Positions 13,621-29,284 of a stretch of DNA of 64,000 bases are shown here, one piece after another. Origin of the DNA: Granulosicoccus sp. Its GTDB lineage: Bacteria > Pseudomonadota > Gammaproteobacteria > Granulosicoccales > Granulosicoccaceae. The stretch is taken from assembly GCA_020627685.1 (NCBI GenBank), contig JAHDGK010000001.1:14084-78083 (forward strand), read 5' to 3'. The notes under the pieces are model-generated. The model searched no databases. It was not told the DNA's origin and saw only the letters and a list, made by a program, of their open reading frames with translations. Every line of letters begins with the position of its first letter. Positions within the stretch are counted from its first letter, which is position 1. The position numbers were made by a program, and so were the translations under genes.

Positions 13621-15051
13621 ATGACCCAATCAGACTCCCCATCTTCGAATGATAAAAGCGACACCAATACTTTATGGGGTGGTCGCTTTTCAGAATCTAC
13701 TGATCAATTTGTACAGGCGTTCACGGCTTCTGTCACCTTTGACAAGCGCATGTATCGTCAAGATATAGCCGGATCTCGAGCGCATGCCACCATGCTCATG
13801 AAAAGCGGTGTGCTGAGTGAAGCAGATTGCGACTCTATTCATCAAGGCTTGAACGATATAGAGAAAGCTATCGACGCTGGTGACTTCGAATGGTCAGTCG
13901 CACTGGAAGATGTGCACATGAACATTGAATCGGCACTCACACAGCGCATCGGTGATGCTGGAAAACGACTTCATACGGGGCGGTCTAGAAACGATCAGGT
14001 GGCTACCGACATCCGCCTCTATTTACGAGATGCCTCTGATGCAGCAGCTGCTGAATATCGCCGCTTGCTGGAAGGGCTACTGGTGTTGGCTGAGAAGCAC
14101 GCTGACACCATCATGCCCGGCTTTACGCATTTACAAACAGCGCAACCGGTAACTTTCGGTCACCACGTGATGGCATGGTTTGAAATGTTGTTGCGAGACT
14201 TAGATAGGCTGTCTGACACTCGCAAACGCATTAACAGCATGCCTTTAGGATCAGCCGCACTTGCTGGTACCTCGTATCCTATCCAGCGTGAGATAACACA
14301 AGAAATACTGGGGTTTCAGAGCATCTGCGAAAATTCATTGGATGCAGTGAGTGATAGGGATTTCGCTATAGAGTTTTGCTCGAATACCGCCATTTGCTTA
14401 ATGCATTTATCGCGCATAGCGGAAGAACTGGTGCTGTGGATGTCGGCGCAATTTCGCTTTATTGAATTACCCGATAGGTTCTGCACGGGATCATCAATCA
14501 TGCCGCAGAAAAAAAACCCGGATGTGCCTGAGTTGGTGCGGGGTAAAACGGGCAGGGCGAATGGCAACCTGATATCCATGCTAACGCTCATGAAAAGTCA
14601 GCCACTTGCCTACAACAAAGACAATCAGGAAGATAAAGAACCCCTGTTTGATTCAGTCGATACGCTCATGGGATGTCTAAGAGCATTCGCCGATATGCTT
14701 CCGGCAGTAGAAGTACGAAAGGAAGAGATGTTGACTGCAGCGAAATCCGGTTTCTCAACTGCTACGGATTTAGCGGATTACTTAGTGAGAAAAGGGCTAG
14801 CGTTTCGTGATGCACATGAAGTGGTAGGTGCGGCGGTTGCGCATGGTGTCGCCAATGATCTGGACCTTGCAGATATGTCTCTTGAAGTATTACAGGGTTT
14901 TAGTGAAGACATTACCGAAGATGTTTTTGATGTACTGACATTAGAAGGTTCTGTGAGTGCGCGAAATCATATTGGCGGTACAGCTCCCGCTGCCGTGAAA
15001 GAGGCAGTTAGTCGGGCTAAAGCCCGTTTGGCGGCGACGTATAACGTATAG
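13621..15051 (+). CDS. argH: Argininosuccinate lyase
   Basis: This is the last enzyme of arginine synthesis, splitting argininosuccinate into arginine and fumarate. At 476 residues it has the expected length. It shows [20 protein letters not shown] at the start, the [17 protein letters not shown] block, the [10 protein letters not shown] segment and the fumarase-superfamily signature [12 protein letters not shown]. It is divergent from hemD with about 230 bases between them. It is the last recognisable housekeeping gene before the unusual 15-24 kb cluster. Confidence 0.97.
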
Positions 15052-15074
15052 GTTTTAATTCGCCTCTTATTTGT

Positions 15075-15091
15075 AAAGAAATCCTTTCTTT
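15075..15091 (+). terminator. Short A/T-rich hairpin after argH
   Basis: AAAGAAA and TTTCTTT face each other across a 3-base loop 24 bases after the argH stop. The stem is A/T-rich and weak, so this is only a possible terminator. Confidence 0.3.
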
Positions 15092-15242
15092 AATTCATCA
15101 TTATCGACCGACTGGAGGGTATGAACTAAGTCGTAAGTTATCGAAATCGGTCCGTTCGTTTATCGCGCTCCTTGCGCGTGAGTTAAAAATGCTATTGTTT
15201 GGTGAAGTAGGTCTTCGTTTCTCTTAGATTTTAACTTTTCCC

Positions 15243-17438
15243 ATGTCAGTAGATACTATGACTCAGAGTGAAAGCACCCCGATTGAAGTGGCTATTATTG
15301 GTGGTGGATGCGCGGGTATTACAGCGGCCTACGAACTATCGAGACCGGAACACGCTGGAAAATACCACGTCACTGTCTATCAACTTGGCTGGCGTCTCGG
15401 TGGCAAAGGAGCCTCAGGGCGAGGGGCTTGCGGGCGAATAGAAGAGCATGGACTGCACCTTTGGATGGGCTTTTACGAAAACGCCTTCCAGCTGTTGCGT
15501 GAGTGTTATGCGGAATTAGATAGAGACCCGGCTACCCATAGCATTGCCACGTTCGAGGACGCCTTTACCAGAGACCCGTTCGTGGGTATCGCCGATTTAT
15601 GTTCAGATGGAAAATGGCGACCTTGGACGGCGGATTTCCCATCAGATGATGCCATACCCGGAGACCCCTTAAGCGAGCACAATCCGTTTTCGGTGTCTAG
15701 CTACCTGCAAAGATCTACGGAGTTGCTTGGCGTCATTTTCTCCTCTTTGTCGTCTCGCCAAAATCAGCCGTTTTCGCCATCATCGCACCAACCTTTTTCA
15801 GCGGAGAATGCCACGGCACCACAAGTATTGCTGGAAACGATTGGTCGACTTTTAAAAGTTGGCGGTGTTGTCTCTTTAGCCGGTTTACTCGAAGCCATTC
15901 AGTTGCTGGGTCTGGCTATTGGCCGTTTGCCGATGTTGCCTAATCAACTGGTGCAACAGTTACTGGACTTAATTCGAAAAAACGCTCATCCACTCATAGA
16001 GAAAATTATTTCCACCGACGATGATTCGCGCAGGTTGTGGGAAATGGCCGATATCATTATGGCTTGCATTCAAGGCGCTATAAGCTTTGATCTTACAACT
16101 CATCCGGATGGATTTGACGCTATAGATGACTATGATTGGCGTGAATGGCTTGTTCTGAATGGAGCATCCGAGTCATCGGTGAATTCAGCGTTTATGCGCG
16201 GCATCTACGATCTGCTTTTTGCCTATGAAGGTGGTGATACCAGCAAGCCGCAAATGTCTGCAGGACAAGCATTACGCGGTGCAGTTCGTATGTTCTTTTC
16301 ATCACGGGGATCCATTTTCTGGAAAATGACAGCCGGCATGGGAGATGTTGTTTTCGCGCCGTTTTATGAAGTATTGAAACAGAGAGGCGTGACGTTCGAG
16401 TTTTTTCACCGACTCGACAATATCGCACTGGTTGATGAATCAACGCTTAAGCCCGGTGAGACACCCTATGTAGAAGAACTGCAGTTTAGTGTGCAGGCTC
16501 TGATAAAAGATCAGCAGGCTTATGATCCTTTAGTTCAATTAAAAAACCTCCCCGTATGGCCATCTGACCCCCTATTCGATCAATTGGTCGATGGCGAGAT
16601 GCTAAAAAGCGAACACAGAGATTTTGAATCTGATTGGGACAGTCGATACATCACAAAGAAATCACTGAAGGTTCAAGAAGACTTCGATTTTGTTGTACTC
16701 GCGGTAGGCTTGGGTGCTGTACCTCATATATGCGGAGATATTATTAAGCGAGATAAACGGTGGCAAGATATGGTTAAGCATGTCGGTACCGTGTCGACCC
16801 AAGCCATGCAGTTGTGGATGAGAGAGGATATGGCATCGTTGGGTTGGGATAGTCCACCCATTAATTTATCTGGCTTCATCACACCCTTTGACACCTGGGC
16901 AGATATGACGCATCTGACACCGATGGAAGACTGGCCAGAGACTCCCGGTAGCATTGCGTATTTTTGCAGCGTACTACCTGAGCCCGATGGAACGGTTGCG
17001 CTCGATGATCCGGTTTACCCCAAGCACCGTTTCGATGAAGTCCGAGACAACTCTACTCATTTTTTGAATAACCATATTCGGGAATTCTGGCCGAAAGCGA
17101 CGAACGCTGACGGCAAATTTCGCTGGGAAATCCTAATCGATAGTGATAACCCGTTGGAGTCTGCTCCACCGACCGATGAATCGGGGTTTGACTCGCAATT
17201 TTGGAAAGCTAACGTTAATTCCTCCGATCGATACATATTGTCATTGCCCGGGACCTCTAAATATCGGATTTCCCCATTGGATATGAGTTACGACAATCTG
17301 ACGATTGCCGGGGATTGGACCGCGTGCAGCCATAACGCGGGTTGTGTAGAGGCTGCTGTAATGTCTGGAAGGCTGGCAGCACATGCTTTATCCGCCAGCC
17401 CGGCATTGGAGGATATTGTCGGATTTGACCACCCATAA
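15243..17438 (+). CDS. FAD-dependent amine-oxidase/phytoene-desaturase-like oxidoreductase
   Basis: This is a 731-residue flavoprotein. The dinucleotide-binding fold is at the N-terminus (VAIIGGGCAGITAAYELS), followed by YQLGWRLGGKGASGRG and EEHGLHLWMGFYENAF. The C-terminus carries the closing FAD motif LTIAGDWTACSHNAGCVEAAVMSGRLAA. This arrangement is shared by phytoene desaturases, hydroxysqualene-type and amine-oxidase-like enzymes, usually acting on hydrophobic isoprenoid-like substrates. It is longer than classical phytoene desaturases (about 500), with inserted segments around 150-290. The start ATG at 15243 has no good ribosome site; an ATG at 15258 (MTQSESTPIEV) is an alternative. It is the first gene of a plus-strand run including a prenyl diphosphate synthase, so an isoprenoid substrate is inferred, not shown. 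Confidence 0.82.
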   Translation: MSVDTMTQSESTPIEVAIIGGGCAGITAAYELSRPEHAGKYHVTVYQLGWRLGGKGASGRGACGRIEEHGLHLWMGFYENAFQLLRECYAELDRDPATHSIATFEDAFTRDPFVGIADLCSDGKWRPWTADFPSDDAIPGDPLSEHNPFSVSSYLQRSTELLGVIFSSLSSRQNQPFSPSSHQPFSAENATAPQVLLETIGRLLKVGGVVSLAGLLEAIQLLGLAIGRLPMLPNQLVQQLLDLIRKNAHPLIEKIISTDDDSRRLWEMADIIMACIQGAISFDLTTHPDGFDAIDDYDWREWLVLNGASESSVNSAFMRGIYDLLFAYEGGDTSKPQMSAGQALRGAVRMFFSSRGSIFWKMTAGMGDVVFAPFYEVLKQRGVTFEFFHRLDNIALVDESTLKPGETPYVEELQFSVQALIKDQQAYDPLVQLKNLPVWPSDPLFDQLVDGEMLKSEHRDFESDWDSRYITKKSLKVQEDFDFVVLAVGLGAVPHICGDIIKRDKRWQDMVKHVGTVSTQAMQLWMREDMASLGWDSPPINLSGFITPFDTWADMTHLTPMEDWPETPGSIAYFCSVLPEPDGTVALDDPVYPKHRFDEVRDNSTHFLNNHIREFWPKATNADGKFRWEILIDSDNPLESAPPTDESGFDSQFWKANVNSSDRYILSLPGTSKYRISPLDMSYDNLTIAGDWTACSHNAGCVEAAVMSGRLAAHALSASPALEDIVGFDHP

Positions 17439-17566
17439 ACTGCCTAGTAGACAATGCTTACAAAATAGCGCGAAGTCTTTGTCCAAGGGGTAACGTAAAC
17501 AAACTTATCCCTGAGACTGAAGGTATACTGGAGCGGCGAAGGCTATTTTTGATAGAGGGGTATTTT

Positions 17567-18337
17567 GTGGAAAATGGCGAAAGAATAAAAAGAGAGGCTC
17601 CAAAACGCCAGAATCCAGATCGGGGCTTTGCCAACATGTTTGGCCAGCCTGTTGGTGGTGATACGAACGGTTCGTCATCGACATCTGACAATGTATGGTC
17701 AGAGAACGTCGATCGCGGCGTGAAACTGGGATACAAGGTTATAGAAGACCAAATTCTGCAAGGGCAGCGCTTCGCGGAAAAACTAGGCACAGGTAGTTAC
17801 AGTGCGGGCGTTATGAACGGAGATGTTCAGGACTTAGCCAAGAATATCCAAAAGTATTCCGAAGACAGCATTCAGTTTTACAGCAAAATAATCGATTCAG
17901 TGACCTCTGAAATGTCCGGCATGGGGTCTAAAGACTTTATGTCAGGCAACGGCATGAACCAGGGTGTTCAGGGTCTGATGGAATCCTTCACTCGTGTTTT
18001 CTCTAACGGTTCAGTGGGTGAGACTGGTGCAAATACCTCTCGTACCCAAGATGCAAACGGTATCAATGTAGCCTGTAGTGTCTCTTCAACGCGCCCTGTA
18101 GAAATAAACGTTAACGTGCAGTCGGCTGATGGCACTCTCATCATAGACAGACTCTACGAGCACGACATCGATAAGCCGCCTATCACAGGCGTCACACTCG
18201 AACGAGATTCCAACTCCCGATTAAAACTAAATGTGGATATCTCCGATGAGCAACCGGCGGGTCACTACAGTGGTGTCATTTACGATCCTGTTGACAAGAA
18301 TCACTGTGGAACGCTCAGCATCACCATCGCCGACTAA
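17567..18337 (+). CDS. Two-part protein of unknown function (helical N-half, beta C-half)
   Basis: I do not recognise this 256-residue protein. The ORF track begins at a TTG (17549), but the GTG at 17567 is preceded by AGAGGGG with six bases between, so I prefer that start (MENGERIKREAPKRQ). The N-terminal half is polar and helical (VIEDQILQGQRFAEKL, then QDLAKNIQKYSEDSIQFYSK), reminiscent of phasin-like or other amphipathic helical proteins. A Gly/Ser/Asn-rich linker leads to a C-terminal beta-rich region (EINVNVQSADGTLIIDRLY, then QPAGHYSGVIYD) resembling a small beta-sandwich. No signal peptide is seen. It lies between the FAD enzyme and the prenyl synthase, 40 bases before the latter. Confidence 0.7.
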   Translation: MENGERIKREAPKRQNPDRGFANMFGQPVGGDTNGSSSTSDNVWSENVDRGVKLGYKVIEDQILQGQRFAEKLGTGSYSAGVMNGDVQDLAKNIQKYSEDSIQFYSKIIDSVTSEMSGMGSKDFMSGNGMNQGVQGLMESFTRVFSNGSVGETGANTSRTQDANGINVACSVSSTRPVEINVNVQSADGTLIIDRLYEHDIDKPPITGVTLERDSNSRLKLNVDISDEQPAGHYSGVIYDPVDKNHCGTLSITIAD

Positions 18338-18377
18338 CTCATTATTGTTGTCTCACAGGGATTGTTGAAATCACTTA

Positions 18378-19412
18378 ATGTATGAAGCTGCAACATCTTC
18401 GCTGATCCCTGAAATGCTCAAGGAGTATGGGGCAATAACTCAGACAGAGTTAGCGAAGTATTTGCCAGACAGAGAACCTAAGCGTTTTTTGTATGACATC
18501 TTGGCGGATTACCCGCAACGCTCTGGCAAGATGATGCGCCCCAGTCTTTGCATAGCCACAGCGCGCGCATTTGGAGCAAGTCTAGAAGACGCATTGGCAA
18601 CAGCCGTCTCCATCGAGTTATTGCACAACGCGTTACTCATTCACGACGACATTGAAGATGAAAGTGATGAGCGTCGCGGCAAACCGACCCTGCACAAAAT
18701 TCATGGAGTGCCGTTGGCCATTAATGCAGGTGACACGCTGTCGCTACTAAGCTTGCTTCCGTTGATCACTAATACAGAAACGTTGGGATCGAAACTCTCT
18801 ACACGTATTCTCGAAGAGACAATACGAATGGCTCTTGAAACTGCTGAAGGTCAGGCCATGGAGCTAGGCTGGCGGCGAGAAAACTGCGTTGATCTCAACG
18901 ACGAAGACTACCTGGTCATGGTGCTGAAAAAAACCTGCTGGCTCGCGACGATTTTTCCATTGCGAATTGGTGCGTTGATCGGCAGCCGCGATACCGCGGA
19001 TCTAGAGAGCTTGATTCGCTTTGGCTTTTTTCTGGGCGCTGCCTTTCAAATACAGGACGACCTACTTAATCTGGTTGGAGATGAGCGATACGGCAAGGAG
19101 CTTAACGGGGATATCCAGGAAGGTAAAAGAACACTTATGCTTTTACATCTGATGGAAAATGCCTCAGATGAGCAGCGCGAACTTTTGTATCAGCTCTTGG
19201 ATACGCCAAGAGAGCAACGTAGTGTGGCTCAGATTCAATGGGTGCGCAGATTGATGGATGAATACGGAAGTATCGACTACGCTAGGGAAATAGCTCATGG
19301 AATGGCTGGTGCGGCCATGCATGAATACAAAATGATATTTTCAAACCTGCCACCCTCTCGTGATAAAGATTTTATCGAAGGGCTTGTCACGTGGGTATTT
19401 GAACGAACGTGA
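18378..19412 (+). CDS. Polyprenyl diphosphate synthase family protein
   Basis: This is a 344-residue all-helical trans-prenyltransferase of the FPP/GGPP synthase family, which builds linear isoprenoid diphosphates from isopentenyl diphosphate. The first Asp-rich motif is complete (LLIHDDIEDESDERRGKPTLH). The region with conserved basic residues before it (RSGKMMRPSLCIA) is present. The second Asp-rich motif reads FQIQDDLLNLVGDERYGKE, so the usual final aspartate of DDxxD is asparagine. Chain length cannot be deduced. It could instead be a related synthase with altered acceptor use. The gene sits in the 15-24 kb cluster and is a strong reason to think the cluster handles isoprenoids. Confidence 0.9.
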   Translation: MYEAATSSLIPEMLKEYGAITQTELAKYLPDREPKRFLYDILADYPQRSGKMMRPSLCIATARAFGASLEDALATAVSIELLHNALLIHDDIEDESDERRGKPTLHKIHGVPLAINAGDTLSLLSLLPLITNTETLGSKLSTRILEETIRMALETAEGQAMELGWRRENCVDLNDEDYLVMVLKKTCWLATIFPLRIGALIGSRDTADLESLIRFGFFLGAAFQIQDDLLNLVGDERYGKELNGDIQEGKRTLMLLHLMENASDEQRELLYQLLDTPREQRSVAQIQWVRRLMDEYGSIDYAREIAHGMAGAAMHEYKMIFSNLPPSRDKDFIEGLVTWVFERT

Positions 19413-19519
19413 GTACTTACTCTTAATTACATTCAGTTCCAATTAGTGTTTCGAGTTGGCCTGAGTGATCGCTGTTAGCGGACATCTCCATCCGAGGATG
19501 TTCGTCAAGAGGAGGACAT

Positions 19520-22500
19520 ATGAGAAATCCTAAGTTTAATAATGCGCGGGGTTCCGCGAGCAGCCTTCAGTTCACGCCACCGTTTTCATTTAGTGACATG
19601 ACTGTGTCCGTCTTTCCCCTTAGGGCAGATTTGACACAGCTTCAACGCTTCATTGATGGTTATTTAAACTTGGACGCGGACAACGTTCGGTTCGAAGCGT
19701 TTCTGCCATACGTTTATCTTCAGGTGCTGGACTACGGCAAGATGTCCATTGAAGCTGCGAACATGGGCTGGGTATCACAGGTAGAGGTCGCGTTTTGCGT
19801 TCCGCTGCGTTGGATGGCAAAGAAGCAGGGCGAATGGGTATTCCACGATTGGGCTGCAAACTGTCCGTTTATTTTCGTGGACAACGAACTTTCTATGACC
19901 ACGGGCAGAGAGGTTTATGGCTGGCCTAAAGTACTCGCGCATATCGACCCCTCTGTGAGTCAGTGGGTGAGTGATCCTCATGGTTGCCAACGCGTTTTCG
20001 ATATACAACTGCCTACATCAAGTGAACATGGAAATAAGCGTAATAGCTCGACCTTCTTATCGGTTCATAAAAATCCTAGTCCGAATTTCCTGGATGTCCC
20101 TTTAAACCTGTCTGGCATGTTAGACCCGCTCACCAATATGCCTGCTATGGGACTCAACATGGCAAAGGCGGGAATGGATATGTACCGCATGTTCGGCAAC
20201 ATGGCCATAGATGGGCTCAAAAATTTCAACACATCTTCAGGGCCGATGAGCGCAGATATGCTAGGCGAGCTATCGAAGTTAGGGCTGCAATCAAACTGGT
20301 CGGATACCAAAAGCTGGTCTTCAACAGCACAGAAAATGATGGCTGCACTGTATCCGCAGATGTCGATGAACACAGTGAACTTAAAACAGTTTCGCGATGC
20401 GTCCAAGCCTTCTACTGCGTGTTACCAAGCACTCACCAACTCCAAAATGATTTTTCGCAATTTGAACGGTGGCGGTTGCCTGGGTCAGCAGAATTTGGCA
20501 TTCGGTCAGATAGATGGAGGTTATAGAATCGATATCAGCCAGTTGAGTCAGCAGCCTGTCGTGGAAGACTTAGGGCTCTTGGTTGATGAAACTCGAACGA
20601 CTGAGCATGGTGATGTGGTTTCACTCAGGCCTGTTCTTCCGTTCTGGTTAAAAGTCGATATGGATTACAGTCGAGGCCGAACGATTACTTGGAGATCCCA
20701 ATCGAGCGATTGGCTTTTCGCGGGAGACCTTAGAAAAATAATTAATGCAGGGCCTCCGAAAGAGCCTGAAACCCAAGTCGATGATGATTCAACAACAGAT
20801 GTCGTAGCAGAAGATTCACAAGACACATCGACATGTGAAGAGCCAAAGAGCAAGGCTAGAGTCAAAGCAGAACGCCCTGATTTACATTCTGGTAGCAATA
20901 GCTATAACACCGCTAGAGGTGCTGCAGTCCAGGAAATCAGCGGTCCTTTTGTATTGCCACAAACAACGGTAAGGGTTTTGCCACTGTTGGCAGATGAAGC
21001 GAAACTTAAAACGTTTGCGTGTGAGTACCTGGATGTTGAAGGGCATTCCCGGTTTGAGGCATGGGGAGCCTATGCTTACCTCGTAGCTTATAACTACACT
21101 AAACGAATATCTGAAGAACGAAGCCAGCCTCTATTTGCAAGTCGGGAAGTCAATTTCGTCGTACCTGTAAAACAGTATGAGTGGTACGACGATGATGACT
21201 ATGACTTGAATACCGCAGAGGGTAGAGCAAAAAGAGATGAGGAGAAGCTGGTTTCCACAGCATTGGTGGCACCTTTCTCTTATGTCGACGATGCCTCAGT
21301 CGCCATATCCAGCAGCGAAGTGCACGGAGTACCGACGTTGCGCTCTGACGTGGGTAGCCCACCGCATACCTGGATGAATACGGGTGGGCCTGAAGCTGGC
21401 CAACATTTATTGATCACCTCAGCCTTAGTGCTTCCGGAATTGGGTGTTGATGCAGGGGCTTCACATGAGATGCTGCTTAATGTCAGTTCAGACCCTGTGT
21501 TGCAGGCGGATGATAAAAAGGGATGGGGACATCTGGCTCGCAAATGGGGTGCAGAACGAGTCCGTGACTTAAAAAGAAAATATGAAGAGAGAGGTATTCG
21601 CTCTGAACAGATAAGTCAGAGCGATGCGTTCAGGCATGTAAGAGCACTCGCATTGGAAGTGATGACCGGCAAGCTTGCCATTAATAATGTCACGTTGAAA
21701 CAATTTCGGGATGCTTGGAAACCTGAAGAGGCGTGCTACCAGGCGCTTGTTCAAGGGCGTAAAACTATAGATCGACTTTATGAAGTTCATGAAATAGATG
21801 AGCAGCTAAATGTCTGGATTCATCGATATCCGACACAACCCATCAGTGACATCCTCGGATTAAAAGTCAAACATGTCGATCACGAGAACAACACGGAAGT
21901 GTTTGAAGCTATTAGACCGTTCTGGTTTAGAGCAGATATAACAGAGCACTTAGGTCAAACCTTGTTTGAAAGAGTGGCTGATACTTGCTGGACTGAACAA
22001 GAGACACCGGAACAGTTAACGGGTTGGTGCTCCGTGCAAAGTGCTGAAATTTCTGAGGCCGTTGCTGATGACGCCGCTCAGATCCGTTATTTTGAACAGA
22101 AAGATGGGCGCTGGTCAGAGAGTATTTGCACCATGGAAGGTGTTGCCTTACAAGAGCGTGATGCATGGATTCAGGACTTGCTTCAACGTGAGGCGAAAGG
22201 TGATATCACGAGTCTGCAGATTTGTTCGCGCAAACGAGCTCGATCTGTAATGGCTAATCCCTCAACGCTTAATCATATCGACCGGGTTCATGTCGATGAC
22301 TTAACAGGGTTCCTCGAAAGTTATCAAAAAGGGCCTGAATCACGCAAAGTTTCCGTCAGCACCTTAGGTAAGTATCTAGGACAGGTATCTCCTGCGACAA
22401 TATTGGACTCCATTTTAAGCAGGCAGTGGGGGCGACCGGAGGCAAAACGGACGGATAGTCCGAGCGCAGATTTTGTGGTTCATGTTGAATCCTTAGGCCC

Positions 22501-22996
22501 AACGGTCGACGACGATATATTCCTTCGTCATGAGCGTAATGGAGATTTTTGGCCGCTGTCATCCGATGAACGCAATGATGTTGAAAATAAGCGCAAGGGA
22601 TTGGCTTGGCAGTTATGGGACGATGTTTGGAGTCTGGTGCAACAAGGGGATAAAGAGGGCTACTCCAACGAAAAAATACCGGCTGACCCTGATACGTATA
22701 TGGAGAAAGCAAAGGAGTGCCTACCAGATTGGTTTGGCCCCGAGTTGTCAAAAAAACCTAGTGAGTGGACGAGTGAGGAATGGAAAAGTATCTCGACTGG
22801 GCTGCAGATGCTTGTCGATTGGTCTCACTATAAAGTCGATTGGAATCGAATTATTCGCAATCTAGACCGTTGGCGAGGCATTGCGTCGGATATGTCCGAG
22901 CAGCTTGGCATCAATCATAGACCTGATGCCGCCGGAGATTGGCAACCGCCAAACGTTGCTGACGTGCTTGAACAACGGCTTCGGGATATACATTGA
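19520..22996 (+). CDS. Tandem acetoacetate-decarboxylase-like protein with C-terminal extension
   Basis: This 1158-residue protein has two related halves. Copy A (about 22-405) contains VRFEAFLPYVYLQVLDYG, then GREVYGWPKVLAHI, LKQFRDASKPSTACYQAL and PFWLKVDM. Copy B (about 475-835) contains SRFEAWGAYAYLVAYNY, SSSEVHGVPTLRSD, LKQFRDAWKPEEACYQAL and PFWFRADI. The GREvyGWPK motif of copy A matches the clostridial acetoacetate decarboxylase site GRELSAYPKK, placing K137 at the Schiff-base lysine; copy B has T606 there. An acidic/polar linker (410-470) joins the copies. The last 320 residues are unassigned. A strong AAGAGGAGG site precedes the ATG. Its stop overlaps the TTG of the next gene. Function unknown: decarboxylase, hydratase/aldolase-like or cyclase-type chemistry are all possible. 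Confidence 0.8.
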   Translation: MRNPKFNNARGSASSLQFTPPFSFSDMTVSVFPLRADLTQLQRFIDGYLNLDADNVRFEAFLPYVYLQVLDYGKMSIEAANMGWVSQVEVAFCVPLRWMAKKQGEWVFHDWAANCPFIFVDNELSMTTGREVYGWPKVLAHIDPSVSQWVSDPHGCQRVFDIQLPTSSEHGNKRNSSTFLSVHKNPSPNFLDVPLNLSGMLDPLTNMPAMGLNMAKAGMDMYRMFGNMAIDGLKNFNTSSGPMSADMLGELSKLGLQSNWSDTKSWSSTAQKMMAALYPQMSMNTVNLKQFRDASKPSTACYQALTNSKMIFRNLNGGGCLGQQNLAFGQIDGGYRIDISQLSQQPVVEDLGLLVDETRTTEHGDVVSLRPVLPFWLKVDMDYSRGRTITWRSQSSDWLFAGDLRKIINAGPPKEPETQVDDDSTTDVVAEDSQDTSTCEEPKSKARVKAERPDLHSGSNSYNTARGAAVQEISGPFVLPQTTVRVLPLLADEAKLKTFACEYLDVEGHSRFEAWGAYAYLVAYNYTKRISEERSQPLFASREVNFVVPVKQYEWYDDDDYDLNTAEGRAKRDEEKLVSTALVAPFSYVDDASVAISSSEVHGVPTLRSDVGSPPHTWMNTGGPEAGQHLLITSALVLPELGVDAGASHEMLLNVSSDPVLQADDKKGWGHLARKWGAERVRDLKRKYEERGIRSEQISQSDAFRHVRALALEVMTGKLAINNVTLKQFRDAWKPEEACYQALVQGRKTIDRLYEVHEIDEQLNVWIHRYPTQPISDILGLKVKHVDHENNTEVFEAIRPFWFRADITEHLGQTLFERVADTCWTEQETPEQLTGWCSVQSAEISEAVADDAAQIRYFEQKDGRWSESICTMEGVALQERDAWIQDLLQREAKGDITSLQICSRKRARSVMANPSTLNHIDRVHVDDLTGFLESYQKGPESRKVSVSTLGKYLGQVSPATILDSILSRQWGRPEAKRTDSPSADFVVHVESLGPTVDDDIFLRHERNGDFWPLSSDERNDVENKRKGLAWQLWDDVWSLVQQGDKEGYSNEKIPADPDTYMEKAKECLPDWFGPELSKKPSEWTSEEWKSISTGLQMLVDWSHYKVDWNRIIRNLDRWRGIASDMSEQLGINHRPDAAGDWQPPNVADVLEQRLRDIH

Positions 22997-24054
22997 ACGA
23001 TTTTCTGATTTATGGGGCAACCGGTTATACCGGTAATCTGATCGCAAAACTTGCGATCGCACGAGGCATCAAACCGGTATTGGCCGGCCGTAATGCTGCG
23101 GCTCTTTCAGCTATGTCGAAGTCAATGGGATTGGAGTACCGCGTTGGTCAATTGGAACGATCGAATGAGCTAGATGATGTGTTGAAAGGGGTGGCTGTTG
23201 TTGTCAATGCAGCAGGGCCCTTTGCATCTACCGCTGAGCATTTGATATCCGCTTGCTTACGTAACAATACACATTACATCGATGTTGCCGGGGAAATTCC
23301 TGTCTTTGAATCGTTGTATCAAAAAGATGCTAACGCTAAACGTTCAAACATTATGGTTATGCCTGGAGTAGGCTTTGTCGTGTTAGCGAGTGATTGCCTG
23401 GCGGCTCACGTTGCGTCCCGCCTGCCCAAGGCACAGTATCTAAGGCTGGCGGTGTCCCGCACTACTTTATTTTCACGGGGTTCGGCCAAAACCATGATGG
23501 AGCTCTTTGACGGTGGTATAAAAATTCGTCGCAAGGGATCACTTTGTTCTGTAGGAATAGGCAGTCTAGAGCGACAGTTTGATTTTGGCCAAGGACTTAA
23601 AGACGCGGTGGTGGTGAGTTGGCCGGATGTTTTTACAGCGCATCGTTCCACGGCCATACCCAACATCGAAACCTATTTTGAGACAGGTCCGATGGAGCGG
23701 AGTTTAATACTGTATGCCAAAAGTGCCGGATGGCTTATGCAGTTACCGTTATCACGGCCTATCTTAAACGCTCAATTATCTTTCCTTCCTCAAGGCCCGA
23801 GTGAGCGTCAAAGAGCATCTGAAAGTAGGGTGATCGTGGCCGAAGTGGAGGATGCATCTGGCCGCGTTGCAAGAAGTCGTTTAACCACCAAAGAAGCTTA
23901 TTCCTTTACCGCCCAGTCGACTCTATTAGTGGTGTCAAAGATACTGTCCGGAGAGTGGTCTGCAGGCTATCAAACACCTGCACAGCTCTATGGAATAAAC
24001 GATGTCACTGCTTTAGAGGGCGTTCATCTAGAGGATTTAGCCACGCCTAGCTAA
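22993..24054 (+). CDS. Saccharopine-dehydrogenase-like NAD(P)-binding reductase
   Basis: This 353-residue protein begins FLIYGATGYTGNLIAKLAIARG, with AGRN at the end of the second strand, a Rossmann fold of the saccharopine dehydrogenase / trans-acting enoyl reductase family. VVNAAGPFASTAEHLISAC and THYIDVAGEIPVFESL are typical of that family. Relatives in mycobacteria act as stand-alone enoyl reductases in lipid assembly; others are of unknown role. The TTG start overlaps the preceding TGA as TTGA, implying coupled translation with the double ADC-like protein and a role in the same pathway (inference). It ends 15 bases from the convergent cyclase gene. Confidence 0.83.
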   Translation: MNDFLIYGATGYTGNLIAKLAIARGIKPVLAGRNAAALSAMSKSMGLEYRVGQLERSNELDDVLKGVAVVVNAAGPFASTAEHLISACLRNNTHYIDVAGEIPVFESLYQKDANAKRSNIMVMPGVGFVVLASDCLAAHVASRLPKAQYLRLAVSRTTLFSRGSAKTMMELFDGGIKIRRKGSLCSVGIGSLERQFDFGQGLKDAVVVSWPDVFTAHRSTAIPNIETYFETGPMERSLILYAKSAGWLMQLPLSRPILNAQLSFLPQGPSERQRASESRVIVAEVEDASGRVARSRLTTKEAYSFTAQSTLLVVSKILSGEWSAGYQTPAQLYGINDVTALEGVHLEDLATPS

Positions 24055-24069
24055 GGACTCACTGTTTAG

Positions 24070-27000
24070 CTAACTAAGTTCTGGTTGCACTGCCTCATCA
24101 AGCAATGATTTTGCGTCTTGTAAATCTGCAATGCTGTGGCCTTCAGTAAAGCGTCCAAAAACATCGGATAGTCTGGCAATAGCCGTATGATAATTTTCAC
24201 CATTCATCTCACGATGGAGACGGACCCGGCTCATAGCAGTGCGAAGCTCGAACATTTTTGCATTGTTCTGCCTAGCTAAGTCGAGGGATTGTTGGAAGCA
24301 CTTTTCAGCAGCTTCAGTATTGTTGTCGCTCAGGAGTAATAGCTCGCCTTTTAGGCGGTACAGCTCAGGAGCAAATAAATCGTCCAACAGCGTATTGGTT
24401 AGCTCTATTGCTTCATCAACCACTTCAAGCCCAGCGGACTGATCACCGCAAAAAAGATGAGCCTCTGCCAGTAAATGCAGATAGTAGGATACGGACAAGC
24501 GCGCACCGGTCAGCCGAAAGCCTGCAACACCTTGTTTGATCAGTTCGATACCTTCCTGATGTTGTCCGTTCTTAACTTTCGCCGAGCCCAAACCCGCCGT
24601 GGCTGTGCTGACAAAAAACGGATAGCCTTGTTCAGATGAGTGATTTCTAAATGTATCGGCACTTTTCGTTAACGCGGGTAAATCGCGTATTGCTTGCATC
24701 AATATCATGTTGAACAGCATGGAGGTTGCTACCACATAGGGTGTGCCCAGCTTTTCAATATGCGCGTTAGTTTCTTTTAGTAATGCCAGTGCCTTATCCG
24801 GATAGCCACAAACCCAGAGATTCCAATAGCCGTAAAAGTGAGGTAACAAATCGGCATCATCGCCAAACGCCTGCGCTAGTTTTTCGTGCTTCTCAACAGA
24901 AAACCGTTGTGCCGCATCATTGAGTTTGTCCCTGGCAGATAGTCTGTCTCCAGACCAAAATGCATTAATTGCCAAGGCTGAACTGGTTACGATAGGTTGC
25001 GACGGGTCAGAGGAGTAGCGGGAAAGCTGAGTAGCTAAATTCATGCTTTCGTCGCGGTTGCCGCGCAATAGGTGAAACACCCATAAGCCATACAGGGTTG
25101 GTATGAGCTGTGGTGTGTCTTCAAGCTCATTGCAAATTTGCTGTGCCCGTGCATAGTTTTCACTGATGTCGTCAGCGGCGTAACCCATCGTAGCCACCAG
25201 GCCAACACCCATTAAGAGTCTGGTATGAAGCTCGAATTGTTTGTTCTCTACCGTATCGGGTGCATCAGATAGTAATGCCAGCGCTTGCCTGCAATGGTTC
25301 ACCGATTCAATATAGGCAGATTGCTCAGCAGAGTTTTTGGCAGCCATTTGCCAGTACTTTATGGCCTCAGAAAGATTCTTTGCGCCGGTAAAATGGTGAG
25401 CCAGTAACTCAGGCTCGCTTTGGGCGGTATCTGGAAAATGTTCGTTAAGGAAGGCTGCAATTTTCCCGTGTATTGATTGGCAATTTTTTCGAAGCAGACT
25501 GTCGTATGCAGCATCCTGAACCAGTGCGTGCTTAAAGGTGTAATGAGATTCCGGCGGATGACCATGTGGGATTATTAATGCTGCATGGCACAGTTCATCC
25601 AGAGCGACCTGAAGTGCAGAACTCGTTAGTCGCGAAATGGCTGCCAGTAAGTCGTAGTGAAAAACTCTGCCGATAACTGACCCGATTTGGGCTGTCTCTT
25701 TGGCGGCAACCGTATGATTCAGTCGAGCTGCAAGAGAGTCTTTGAGCGTGTTCGGTACAGCGACGGAAGGCAGTGCACCGGAAAGAACATATCGCTCGCC
25801 AGTATCAACAAGAAACTTAGAATCGAGCATTGTCTTTGTCAATTCTTCGATAAACAGTGGTGTACCGTCAGATTTTGAAACAATGGCGTCGAGAATGGGG
25901 CGCGGTAGTTCTTTCCCAGGTGCAATCGAATGGATCAATTGCATGATGTCATCCGCATCAAGCCTTCCAAGATTGAGGCTCAAATTGGAGGCGTGATTTT
26001 GCCAAGGTGCGGTAAATTCAGGTCTGCTGGTTACAACGACCAGAATGTGGGCCTGCGGGATTTTATCGACGAGGCGTTCCAGCAATTCCAATGATGATGG
26101 ATCAATCCAATGCAAATCCTCAAACAACATCAACAACGGTTTTTCGCTCGCCACACTCAAAAAGTGATCAAGCAGCGCGCTCATTATTGTCTCTTTCAGT
26201 ATCCCAGGCGTTAGATTGAGTTTGGGCAGACGCTCATCGGAGCGTATCGATAAAAGATTTGCTAGCAGTGGCAGGGATACGGATACATCCTGGCCCAGAC
26301 TTTTTAGCATCACTTCAAGCTTGTCGAGTTTGGTATCACTATCGTCGCCTCGTTCGAACTTCGCGCTGCTTTCGATATGAGCAATAACAGGAAAAAACGC
26401 ACTGTACTGATTGAACTGAGTACAGAAAAAGCGCATGGTTGCGTGTGGCTGGTCAGCCACCTGATCACGTACAGCCTGGATAAGTCGTGATTTCCCGATT
26501 CCCGGTTCACCACTCATACTCACAATTTGCCCTTTGCCGGAACACGCTTGCTGCCAGCCTGTTTGCAGTACGCTGAGTTCTCTCTCGCGGCCAACGATCG
26601 ACGTTACTGACGCACGCCCGTGTCTAGCTTCGAACCGCCTTTCGTCAGACTGAACGCGAACTGGTTGCCACGCCCGCACAGGGTCTGTAAAGCCTTTTAA
26701 AGCATGCTCTCCGAGGTCAACACATTCGAATGTTCCTCCGGTGAGTTGTTTTGTCTGATCGCTGATAATGACGGTATTGGGTTCTGCCAAGGACTGCAGA
26801 CGGGCTGCAAGGTTTGGCGTCTCACCGTAGACAGACAACTCCATGGCGCTGCCCTCGCCGATGACTTCTCCCACGACGACAGGGCCTGTAGCAATGCCAA
26901 TTCGAACGGGTAGGGGAAGATCGAAAACTCGCACCTTTGCCAACTCATCAACGATTTCCAACCCGGCTCTTGCCGCTTGTTCGGGGGAGTTCTCGTGCGC

Positions 27001-27417
27001 AACGGGATACCCGAAATACACTAATATCCCGTCGCCGAGAAATCTGGCCGTGGTACCTGAATATTTGGCAATAGCGCTTTCGCAGGTTTCACGGAAGACC
27101 CGAATGATCTCGCTGAGATCTTCCGGATCGAATTGTTCGGACAAGGCGGTTGAACCCACCAAGTCGCAAAACATGACCGTCAACTGGCGGCGATCATGAG
27201 GTGCTTCAATCGGCTGAGGTGATGCATCTGACGATTGTTCGTTTAATGCCGCAATAGCCTTGGTGAGTTTTTTCCTGGGGCCGAGAGGAATGCCTAGCTC
27301 AATCAGGTCACGCTCTGTGAGATCTGCAAGGACATCCATATCAACCTCAAGCTCTTCAAAAGACTTGTGGTATTTGCTCAGACCGAGGTCAGATAGCCAT
27401 GACTTGATATCTGTCAT
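24070..27417 (-). CDS. SAM domain - class III nucleotide cyclase - AAA ATPase - TPR regulator
   Basis: This is a 1115-residue multidomain signalling protein. Residues 1-60 form a SAM domain (WLSDLGLSKYHKSFEE, then ERDLIELGIPLGPRKKL). Residues about 78-250 are a class III cyclase catalytic domain with both metal-binding aspartates (VMFCDLVGSTALSE and RFLGDGILVYFGYP) and the transition-state Asn/Arg pair (GETPNLAARLQ), so cyclase activity is plausible. A P-loop ATPase follows (SGEPGIGKSRLIQAV) with Walker B-like LLMLFEDLHWID, then about 450 residues of helical TPR-like repeats. There is no membrane segment. The product could be cAMP or cGMP. It faces the 15-24 kb cluster convergently and diverges from the UbiA gene. 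Confidence 0.92.
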   Translation of the reverse strand: MTDIKSWLSDLGLSKYHKSFEELEVDMDVLADLTERDLIELGIPLGPRKKLTKAIAALNEQSSDASPQPIEAPHDRRQLTVMFCDLVGSTALSEQFDPEDLSEIIRVFRETCESAIAKYSGTTARFLGDGILVYFGYPVAHENSPEQAARAGLEIVDELAKVRVFDLPLPVRIGIATGPVVVGEVIGEGSAMELSVYGETPNLAARLQSLAEPNTVIISDQTKQLTGGTFECVDLGEHALKGFTDPVRAWQPVRVQSDERRFEARHGRASVTSIVGRERELSVLQTGWQQACSGKGQIVSMSGEPGIGKSRLIQAVRDQVADQPHATMRFFCTQFNQYSAFFPVIAHIESSAKFERGDDSDTKLDKLEVMLKSLGQDVSVSLPLLANLLSIRSDERLPKLNLTPGILKETIMSALLDHFLSVASEKPLLMLFEDLHWIDPSSLELLERLVDKIPQAHILVVVTSRPEFTAPWQNHASNLSLNLGRLDADDIMQLIHSIAPGKELPRPILDAIVSKSDGTPLFIEELTKTMLDSKFLVDTGERYVLSGALPSVAVPNTLKDSLAARLNHTVAAKETAQIGSVIGRVFHYDLLAAISRLTSSALQVALDELCHAALIIPHGHPPESHYTFKHALVQDAAYDSLLRKNCQSIHGKIAAFLNEHFPDTAQSEPELLAHHFTGAKNLSEAIKYWQMAAKNSAEQSAYIESVNHCRQALALLSDAPDTVENKQFELHTRLLMGVGLVATMGYAADDISENYARAQQICNELEDTPQLIPTLYGLWVFHLLRGNRDESMNLATQLSRYSSDPSQPIVTSSALAINAFWSGDRLSARDKLNDAAQRFSVEKHEKLAQAFGDDADLLPHFYGYWNLWVCGYPDKALALLKETNAHIEKLGTPYVVATSMLFNMILMQAIRDLPALTKSADTFRNHSSEQGYPFFVSTATAGLGSAKVKNGQHQEGIELIKQGVAGFRLTGARLSVSYYLHLLAEAHLFCGDQSAGLEVVDEAIELTNTLLDDLFAPELYRLKGELLLLSDNNTEAAEKCFQQSLDLARQNNAKMFELRTAMSRVRLHREMNGENYHTAIARLSDVFGRFTEGHSIADLQDAKSLLDEAVQPELS

Positions 27418-27777
27418 TAAGTCACGAGCCCTGGGAGGATCGCCGGAAATATATTACAGGCGGCTTTCGCACGCCAACTCACTTTTCCCATGGGTAACAA
27501 CTCTTAGGTTACATCGACAACATTACAATCCTAGCGACTTTCGGGAATTTTGCCTACTAATGGTTGAAATTTAGTGAATTTGGTGCTGAGCAAGTGAATT
27601 TAAGAGGCAGTTAGTGCGCTGCTATGGAGCGCCTCATATCGACTCCTGTGCTGCCAGGTTTGCCTCCTTAGCCGAGAATCATTCTGCCCGTCCAACTCGT
27701 TCTCATGAATACAAGATTCCGGTCAAATTACCTATCGGAGTTCCAGAAACGCGTTCGAAGGAGTAGATTAGTGGCAG
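27418..27777. other. Divergent intergenic region (cyclase / UbiA)
   Basis: This 360-base region has no supported gene. It contains a pair of AGTGAATTT direct repeats (listed separately) and should carry promoters for both flanking genes. I see no tRNA or other RNA gene in it. Confidence 0.5.
27573..27601. repeat. Pair of AGTGAATTT direct repeats, 20-base spacing
   Basis: AGTGAATTT occurs at 27573-27581 and 27593-27601. The start-to-start spacing of 20 bases puts both on the same DNA face. A partly similar TTGAAATTT lies just upstream. It may be an operator for the cyclase or UbiA gene, but the sequence is A/T-rich and chance is possible. Confidence 0.35.
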
Positions 27778-28560
27778 ATGTGCCGTAACGAAGACAGTTG
27801 CTTTATGAGTAGCCTAATTCCATTTTTCCGATCGATCCGGGGATTCCAAAGTCTTGCCAGCGCTCTGATACTGTTCGTTTTCAGTGAGAACTTAGGGTAC
27901 AGCGTTGCATTCTTATTGTTACTGGCCTTCTCTTACTCCTTCAACGATATATTCGATTATGTATTGGGTAATGATATTGAGGCCCATCCAAATCGTCCGC
28001 TCCCATCAGGGGCCCTATCGCTCAAGTTCGCTGCCATCGGGTGCACAATTCTCGCGTTGCTCTTCTGTGCTCAAGTGGTGTTCATATCGTCTTTGCATGA
28101 AAAACTAATATTGATAACCGGGCTCTGTGTATCGGCTCTTTATTCGCTGTTTCTTAAACGTTGGTATCCAGGCTTCGCCATGCCGATTTGGTCAGCGATG
28201 ACCGTGGTGGTGTTTTTGAAAGCATCGGACGTAGAGACAGTTTGTTATGTTCTGTGTCTCATGTTCTTTATCGGGCGGGAGTTACTGCTTGATATACGTG
28301 ACGAAAAAACAGATCGCTTGCTGGCAAAAACCCCGAGCCTTGCGACTATCTTAGGCAGCTGGGGCAGGCCGATTGCAGTAGCAGGCATGATCATTCCCAT
28401 CCTGGCGTTGCTGTTCTTCGATCATCAGAATTACGCGATTTTGAGCATCGCCATAGCGCTGTTCGCAACCTCGCTTATCGTCACCTACCAAAGTGCTGAC
28501 AAAATGGAGCTTGTGTCTAAAGCCGGGTATCTTTTCGTGCTTTTTGCACCGAGTTTGTAG
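27778..28560 (+). CDS. UbiA-family prenyltransferase
   Basis: This is a 260-residue integral membrane protein with about eight hydrophobic segments. The first Asp-rich motif is NDIFDYVLGNDIEAHPNRPLP, and the second is LLLDIRDEKTDRLLAKTP; both are expected for intramembrane transfer of a prenyl or similar chain to an acceptor. The acceptor cannot be deduced. The protein is shorter than UbiA itself (about 290) and is closer to the general UbiA superfamily used for quinones, tocopherol-like and other products. GAAGGAG lies about 14 bases before the ATG at 27778; the ATG at 27805 (MSSLIPFF) is an alternative start. Proximity to the prenyl diphosphate synthase suggests, but does not prove, a shared pathway. 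Confidence 0.85.
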   Translation: MCRNEDSCFMSSLIPFFRSIRGFQSLASALILFVFSENLGYSVAFLLLLAFSYSFNDIFDYVLGNDIEAHPNRPLPSGALSLKFAAIGCTILALLFCAQVVFISSLHEKLILITGLCVSALYSLFLKRWYPGFAMPIWSAMTVVVFLKASDVETVCYVLCLMFFIGRELLLDIRDEKTDRLLAKTPSLATILGSWGRPIAVAGMIIPILALLFFDHQNYAILSIAIALFATSLIVTYQSADKMELVSKAGYLFVLFAPSL

Positions 28561-28606
28561 CGCCTTTTTACAGTCCGCACGGTGCTAAACCGCTTAAAAA
28601 ATAGGC

Positions 28607-29284
28607 TTACATTCCTACTAAACGTTTAAGCCAGTCTGCAATGTCTACGATCTCTTCTGAACTGACGCTATGCGGCATCGCATAGTCGTGCCATTCAAGG
28701 GCAACACCCTTGGCTTCAAGTGCTTGTCTGGACTGCTGAGCATGCTGAATCTGGATAACATCATCCATTTGACCATGCGCCATAAATACCGGAACGCCTA
28801 GATGTGCGTCGGTGATGGCCGGTAGTGCTTCATCTTGAATGGGCATATACGTGGACAAGGCCATGATGCCTGCCAATTTGTGTTTACCTGTCAGACCTGC
28901 GTACAAAGCTATAGCACCTCCTTGAGAAAATCCAGCCAGGATAATGTTGCTGGCAGGGATGCCCTGAGCAATTTCATTGTCGATGAGATCGTCAACCATC
29001 GCGGCAGATTCCCTTGTACCTTCATAGTCTTGCTCACGGCTGCCGAAGTCCAGCGAGGTAATGTCGTACCAACCCCGCATAGCCGCACCTCCGTTGATCG
29101 TTATGGGGCGAATAGGAGCGTGTGGGAACAGGAACCGGATACCTGGACGTTGCAGGAGTTTAAGCTCGGGCACAATCGGCTCGAAGTCATGACCGCTCGC
29201 GCCGAGGCCGTGAAGCCAGATTACCGTGTACTCAACCGGTTCAGCGGTAGTAATTTCGATGCAATCGAGCAGTTTTTGGGACAT
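28607..29284 (-). CDS. Phospholipase/carboxylesterase family alpha/beta hydrolase
   Basis: This 225-residue serine hydrolase resembles the EstB/YpfH carboxylesterases. It shows the oxyanion-region motif VIWLHGLGASGHDFEPIV, the nucleophile elbow GFSQGGAIALYAGL, an aspartate in VFMAHGQMDDVIQIQHA, and the histidine in YAMPHSVSSEEI. No signal peptide is present, so it is cytoplasmic. Likely substrates are short-chain esters. It is divergent from the lptM-lysA block. Confidence 0.92.
   Translation of the reverse strand: MSQKLLDCIEITTAEPVEYTVIWLHGLGASGHDFEPIVPELKLLQRPGIRFLFPHAPIRPITINGGAAMRGWYDITSLDFGSREQDYEGTRESAAMVDDLIDNEIAQGIPASNIILAGFSQGGAIALYAGLTGKHKLAGIMALSTYMPIQDEALPAITDAHLGVPVFMAHGQMDDVIQIQHAQQSRQALEAKGVALEWHDYAMPHSVSSEEIVDIADWLKRLVGM

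Follow-up and report, generated by a model that had tools for sequence, protein, structure and literature searches.

Acetoacetate decarboxylase (ADC; Pfam PF06314; PDB entries 3bh2, 3bgt and 3c8w) is the classical enzyme with which the protein reported here can be compared; its fold recurs in that protein, and its GRExxGxPK lysine motif in one half of it. R29 of the clostridial enzyme is presumably a substrate-binding residue, and the roles of R29, K116 and E76 were reportedly set out by Ho and co-workers in 2009. Other members of the superfamily are MppR (4jmc, 4jmd) and Swit_4259 (5upb), which were fold matches to our model, and the streptomycete protein 4zbo, a sequence match with an aligned lysine; we take these to be non-decarboxylating enzymes of aldolase/dehydratase chemistry, and they are single-domain chains of about 255–265 residues, unlike the protein described below. 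Other enzyme families are known in which an active and an inactive copy of a single fold are paired.

The CLA-DC protein of Lactobacillus plantarum, annotated as an acetoacetate decarboxylase, shifts a double bond of a keto fatty acid (PMC11719350), so that lipid carbonyl chemistry has a precedent under the ADC annotation. CLA-DC belongs to a redox gene set and acts on a hydrophobic chain, as proposed here, and the passage on it describes neither a tandem copy nor a prenyl synthase (PMC11719350). Two neighbours of the gene under study also approach described families. The FAD-binding profile of one is similar to that of HpnE and the phytoene desaturase superfamily, and a nucleotide cyclase resembles the kinase/cyclase fusion protein of TOMM systems (TIGR03903), scoring 534.8 bits over model positions 279–1261, but below the cut-off of 705.75, with the model before position 279 unmatched and with a SAM domain at its N-terminus.

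We examined a window of 64,000 nucleotides from the genome of a Granulosicoccus species, within which one gene encodes a protein of 1158 residues, compared with about 245 for classical ADC. It consists of two fused ADC-like copies with helical inserts, one of them without the lysine, and it lies in a gene cluster conserved across several phyla (Table 1).

Table 1. Features of the Granulosicoccus locus (positions within the window)
Feature	Position	Strand	Basis
Block missing from genus relatives between argH and lysA	15042..28607	.	alignment to relative G006
FAD-dependent oxidoreductase, amine oxidase / HpnE / phytoene desaturase superfamily	15243..17438	+	Pfam, NCBIfam, loci
U262, no known family	17549..18337	+	model, profile searches
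Polyprenyl diphosphate synthase, DDIED and DDLLN aspartate motifs	18378..19412	+	Pfam PF00348, E=8.6e-59
Tandem ADC-fold protein, 1158 aa	19520..22996	+	ORF, Pfam, self-alignment, fold
Half A, aa 1-398, ADC fold, lysine kept	19520..20713	+	Pfam match, family profile
K137 codon, equivalent of the Schiff-base lysine	19928..19930	+	column of 32 A copies; aligned with K122 of PDB 4zbo
Half B, aa 457-824, lysine replaced, ADC fold via homology to A	20888..21991	+	BLASTP, profiles
T606 codon at the lysine position	21335..21337	+	column of 30 B copies
C-terminal tail, aa 825-1158	21992..22993	+	related only to tails of Roseobacteraceae proteins; absent from short forms
NAD(P)-binding reductase-like protein, saccharopine dehydrogenase NADP domain; start overlaps tandem ADC stop	22993..24054	+	sequence, Pfam, loci
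SAM domain - class III nucleotide cyclase - AAA - TPR protein, conserved neighbour	24070..27417	-	domain and locus searches
UbiA-family prenyltransferase within block	27778..28560	+	far below every NCBIfam cut-off

Results

Two copies of the ADC fold in one protein

The open reading frame of the tandem protein begins with ATG, with AGGAGG just upstream. Its two halves are homologous, aligning with 24% identity over 403 columns (BLASTP, E=2e-24), and profile-profile alignment of the family of first copies (A) against that of second copies (B) gave E=3.5e-65, a similarity far beyond chance. An earlier note, made from the letters of the DNA, had placed an intact lysine at K137 and a threonine at T606; both numbers are right, since GREVYGWPK starts at residue 129 and SSEVHGVPT at residue 598, and the two residues occupy one column in the pairwise and in the family alignments. 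The motif order that it described was recovered as well, with KQFRDA...ACYQ running from residues 289 and 727 and with RFEA and PFW-[KR][VA]D in both halves. Its division into two halves and a tail stood, with domain limits that were slightly off: the profile gives about 1–398 and about 457–824, and the tail, which has no Pfam match on its own, is about 334 residues long and not 320.

Pfam ADC matched residues 20–144 (36.6 bits against a cut-off of 29.8), whereas half B alone and the tail alone had no Pfam match; the tandem proteins matched none of the NCBIfam models. A PDB search with the single sequence returned only insignificant aldo/keto reductase matches. When the query was a profile combining the A copies with single-copy relatives, the PDB search returned ADC-family entries, the best being 4zbo (E=0.0011), and K137 was aligned with the lysine of its FPK motif (K122 by count). 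At the sequence level the likeness to classical ADC is confined to 24 columns around the lysine motif, with a match probability of 88% for A and 18% for B; half B is placed in the ADC fold because it is homologous to half A. An AlphaFold2 model of the whole protein, prepared from 29 tandem relatives, had a mean pLDDT of 72.5 and a pTM of 0.72, with low confidence in the linker between the halves (residues 410–458). Where the earlier note had allowed for there being no ADC-fold match at all, a fold search using the whole-protein model, in which the halves were not told apart, found all 11 PDB chains with E≤0.001 to be of the ADC family, and 28 of the 29 tandem members matched Pfam ADC. The order of strands in the model is identical in A and B, and each half has a helical insert (about 197–277 and about 666–715) that precedes the strand with KQFRDA...ACYQ. 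The tandem protein is a member of the ADC superfamily at the level of the fold, with the GRExxGxPK lysine in half A.

One lysine per pair

Lysine was present at the K137/T606 column in 31 of 32 A copies and absent in 29 of 30 B copies (T in 12, S in 10, A in 6, M in 1). Each of the 30 complete tandem proteins had exactly one lysine at this column, in half A for 29 of them; the lone exception, from locus L081, had the order reversed. The arrangement of one half with and one half without lysine is a rule of the family, not a quirk of one gene. G129, R130, G134 and K137 were invariant in A copies and single-copy relatives. All 30 B copies retained G134, Q290, R292 and Q303 (numbering of A), but not K137, and the retention of these four residues indicates that half B is under constraint and not decaying.

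The tandem proteins span at least five phyla: Pseudomonadota, Myxococcota, Acidobacteriota, Gemmatimonadota and Binatota. In the tree 29 B copies formed a single clade (SH-aLRT 99) beside the A copies; there was one old duplication, before the spread over the five phyla, followed by joint inheritance, and a recent duplication within the Granulosicoccus gene is ruled out by the tree. Together with the single lysine in every complete protein, the B clade gives good support to the duplication with lysine loss in one copy that the earlier note had proposed. Sphingomonads have two separate, adjacent ADC genes, one with the lysine and the other with M or A at that position. Forcing the sphingomonad lysine-less copies to group with B was mildly rejected (AU p=0.019, with long branches and a group named after the tree had been seen), which hints that this gene pair may be a second origin of the arrangement.

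Additional ADC genes were seen at some loci. A second complete tandem ADC protein is encoded elsewhere in the cluster-bearing genome of Sulfitobacter sediminilitoris (G408, locus L115); in a Thermoanaerobaculia bin the FAD gene is preceded by two consecutive tandem ADC genes (L028, 5368–9983, + strand); and in Enhygromyxa a divergent ADC-like gene (L048, 16875–17846, - strand), scoring 19.9 bits and so below the Pfam cut-off, adjoins the tandem ADC gene.

Residues of the classical enzyme

The positions of R29 and K116 were located by alignment to the NRE and PKK motifs of classical ADCs of the class. The R29 position (residue 27 of the Granulosicoccus protein) was V in 24 and M in 5 of the 32 A copies, R29 not being kept, and the second lysine of PKK (K116 position), present in the classical relatives, was replaced by V, L, T, A or M. 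E89 was kept in 30 A copies and is probably the equivalent of E76, to which it was matched by its spacing to the following V/I-P motif. With the R29 position hydrophobic and the second lysine missing, the tandem protein is more probably a Schiff-base enzyme acting on a different substrate, and decarboxylation of acetoacetate by it seems unlikely. The caution voiced earlier, that the ADC likeness does not establish decarboxylation, was well placed and is sharpened by the lack of conservation at these two positions.

A conserved gene cluster

We scanned 85,462 species genomes with the FAD family, whose Granulosicoccus member lies three genes upstream of the tandem ADC gene, and obtained at least 542 relatives, the best 80 of which are loci L012 to L091. 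The cluster around these relatives comprises the FAD oxidoreductase, U262, a polyprenyl diphosphate synthase, an ADC (tandem or single), an NAD(P) reductase and the cyclase-AAA protein; many of the loci are from metagenome bins, and the E-values of the locus searches are relative to the candidates. Genes within 8 kb of the FAD gene were counted at the 41 loci having flanks of at least 8 kb on both sides, as raw counts that ignore the kinship of the loci. The polyprenyl synthase was found at 38, the cyclase-AAA protein at 36, ADC at 28 (with none near at the other 13), the NAD(P) reductase at 22 and U262 at 17. The loci were picked by similarity of the FAD gene, so the counts for ADC and cyclase are not circular. 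Neither this cluster nor the wide spread of the family had been remarked on in the earlier note. Relatives of the tandem protein were found neither by a whole-protein search of 56 related genomes nor in genome contigs, viral contigs and plasmids by a pattern method that needs well conserved peptides.

Fusions of ADC and FAD enzyme occur in both orders. In G083, from another family of the class, an ADC domain is fused to a FAD enzyme of the same kind; the ADC-FAD order is seen at L010 and L083, and the FAD-ADC order at L112 and L113 (Archangium and Pyxidicoccus). The two opposite orders are strong evidence that the two proteins would act in a shared step or complex. The FAD enzyme scored 60.5 of the 283 bits required for HpnE and 31.1 of the 569 required for phytoene desaturase (NCBIfam cut-offs), and the host genome, 99.5% complete, has no match to squalene/phytoene synthase (PF00494). 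Since the host lacks this synthase, neither squalene nor phytoene is a likely substrate for its FAD enzyme; the argument is limited to this host, as PF00494 is present in all 15 other cluster-bearing genomes tested. A carotenoid or hopanoid pathway was set aside as unlikely for this host, there being no PF00494 and the FAD scores lying far below the cut-offs.

Concerning the remaining neighbours, the host genome has three polyprenyl synthases, and identity of the one in the cluster with the cargo polyprenyl transferase of family 2 encapsulins (NF041169) was rejected at 177 of 450 bits, below the cut-off. The N-terminus of U262 is of low complexity and rich in arginine, and the protein has two long helices and a C-terminal beta sandwich; it gave no Pfam, NCBIfam or significant fold match and is possibly a scaffold or lipid-surface protein. 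There is no second copy of the cyclase-AAA protein in the host genome at E≤1e-30, so abundance does not explain its place beside the clusters; it may have a regulatory role and move along with metabolite clusters of different kinds. At locus L009 (7608–14820) two FAD paralogs surround a single ADC gene (GREALGFFK), and the gene for a carotenoid oxygenase (RPE65 family, E=7.9e-125) comes next; judged by its genes, this locus is apparently an apocarotenoid-like variant of the cluster.

An inserted block between argH and lysA

The distance between argH and lysA is about 1 kb, on one contig, in genus relatives (154620 to 155660 in G006), versus 14.6 kb here. The extra DNA is a precise insertion of 13.6 kb between argH and the stretch preceding lysA, its two flanks joining at 1539/1540 of L117 (reversed); it contains all six genes of the cluster together with a UbiA prenyltransferase. 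The latter is one of four UbiA-family genes in the genome, has no homolog in the other clusters and could use the product of the prenyl synthase. The simplest reading is that the block was gained in this lineage; alternatively, there may have been repeated loss in the relatives. A mobile or viral origin was considered and rejected: the window has no tRNA, and the block has no long end repeats, an even G+C content and no viral relative.

Discussion

We give about an even chance to a reading in which half A would act on the carbonyl of an isoprenoid intermediate through a Schiff base, half B would be its non-catalytic partner, and the cluster would encode a pathway that makes or modifies isoprenoid lipids; it is the neighbouring genes, by themselves, that point to an isoprenoid substrate. 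The polyprenyl diphosphate synthase would make the chain, whose redox state would be altered by the FAD oxidoreductase and the NAD(P)-dependent reductase, and K137 would serve as the Schiff-base lysine toward a carbonyl-bearing intermediate, in a reaction that is most likely C-C cleavage, dehydration or a double-bond shift next to the carbonyl, rather than decarboxylation of acetoacetate. Half B would have lost its lysine once, in the common ancestor, and would complete a pseudo-homodimer, perhaps shaping the pocket or docking the FAD enzyme, while the cyclase-AAA protein would regulate the cluster.

Half A could instead be a true beta-keto acid decarboxylase, of a prenylated or otherwise larger substrate, half B serving as a scaffold. 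In favour are the ADC fold and the retention of both the lysine motif and the probable E76 equivalent, but the substitution of R29 by V or M in nearly all A copies, the absence of the second lysine, and the lack of any beta-keto acid-forming gene among the conserved neighbours make this unlikely in our view. That half B might itself be catalytic by a route independent of lysine, the protein then being bifunctional, draws on its invariant E, G, Q, R, A, C, Y and Q (residues 600, 603, 728, 730 and 738–741) and on the frequent glutamate (19 of 30) at the E61-like position 59. The residues that B conserves are, however, mostly found in A too and lie in the same motif, which is what a structural core would show, and we know of no lysine-free activity for the ADC fold, so that we regard it as quite improbable.

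We regard as very improbable the further proposal that half A is a non-enzymatic carrier or sensor, which would hold a carbonyl terpenoid (e.g., an aldehyde) reversibly as a Schiff base and pass it on or signal to the cyclase. The large family-specific inserts and tails, the conserved cyclase-AAA neighbour, and the adjacency of ADC to the oxygenase of L009, an aldehyde maker, would suit such a role; but in A the motif positions near the lysine do not vary, as one would expect of an enzyme, and the oxygenase was found at that one locus only.

A literature search that covered few subscription journals found no description of the cluster, or of active/inactive pairing in the ADC superfamily. We tentatively suggest, at somewhat under an even chance, that the cluster represents an undescribed and widespread isoprenoid-modifying pathway, whose key enzyme would be an obligate pair of lysine-bearing and lysine-less ADC copies that arose at least twice, as the tandem fusion and as the adjacent sphingomonad genes, and whose ADC part would have undergone repeated fusion with the FAD partner, with ADC first or FAD first. 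If true, the pathway would be conserved in several phyla, and its FAD enzyme has more than 540 relatives. Because each pair carries exactly one lysine, what the lysine-less half does can be tested directly.
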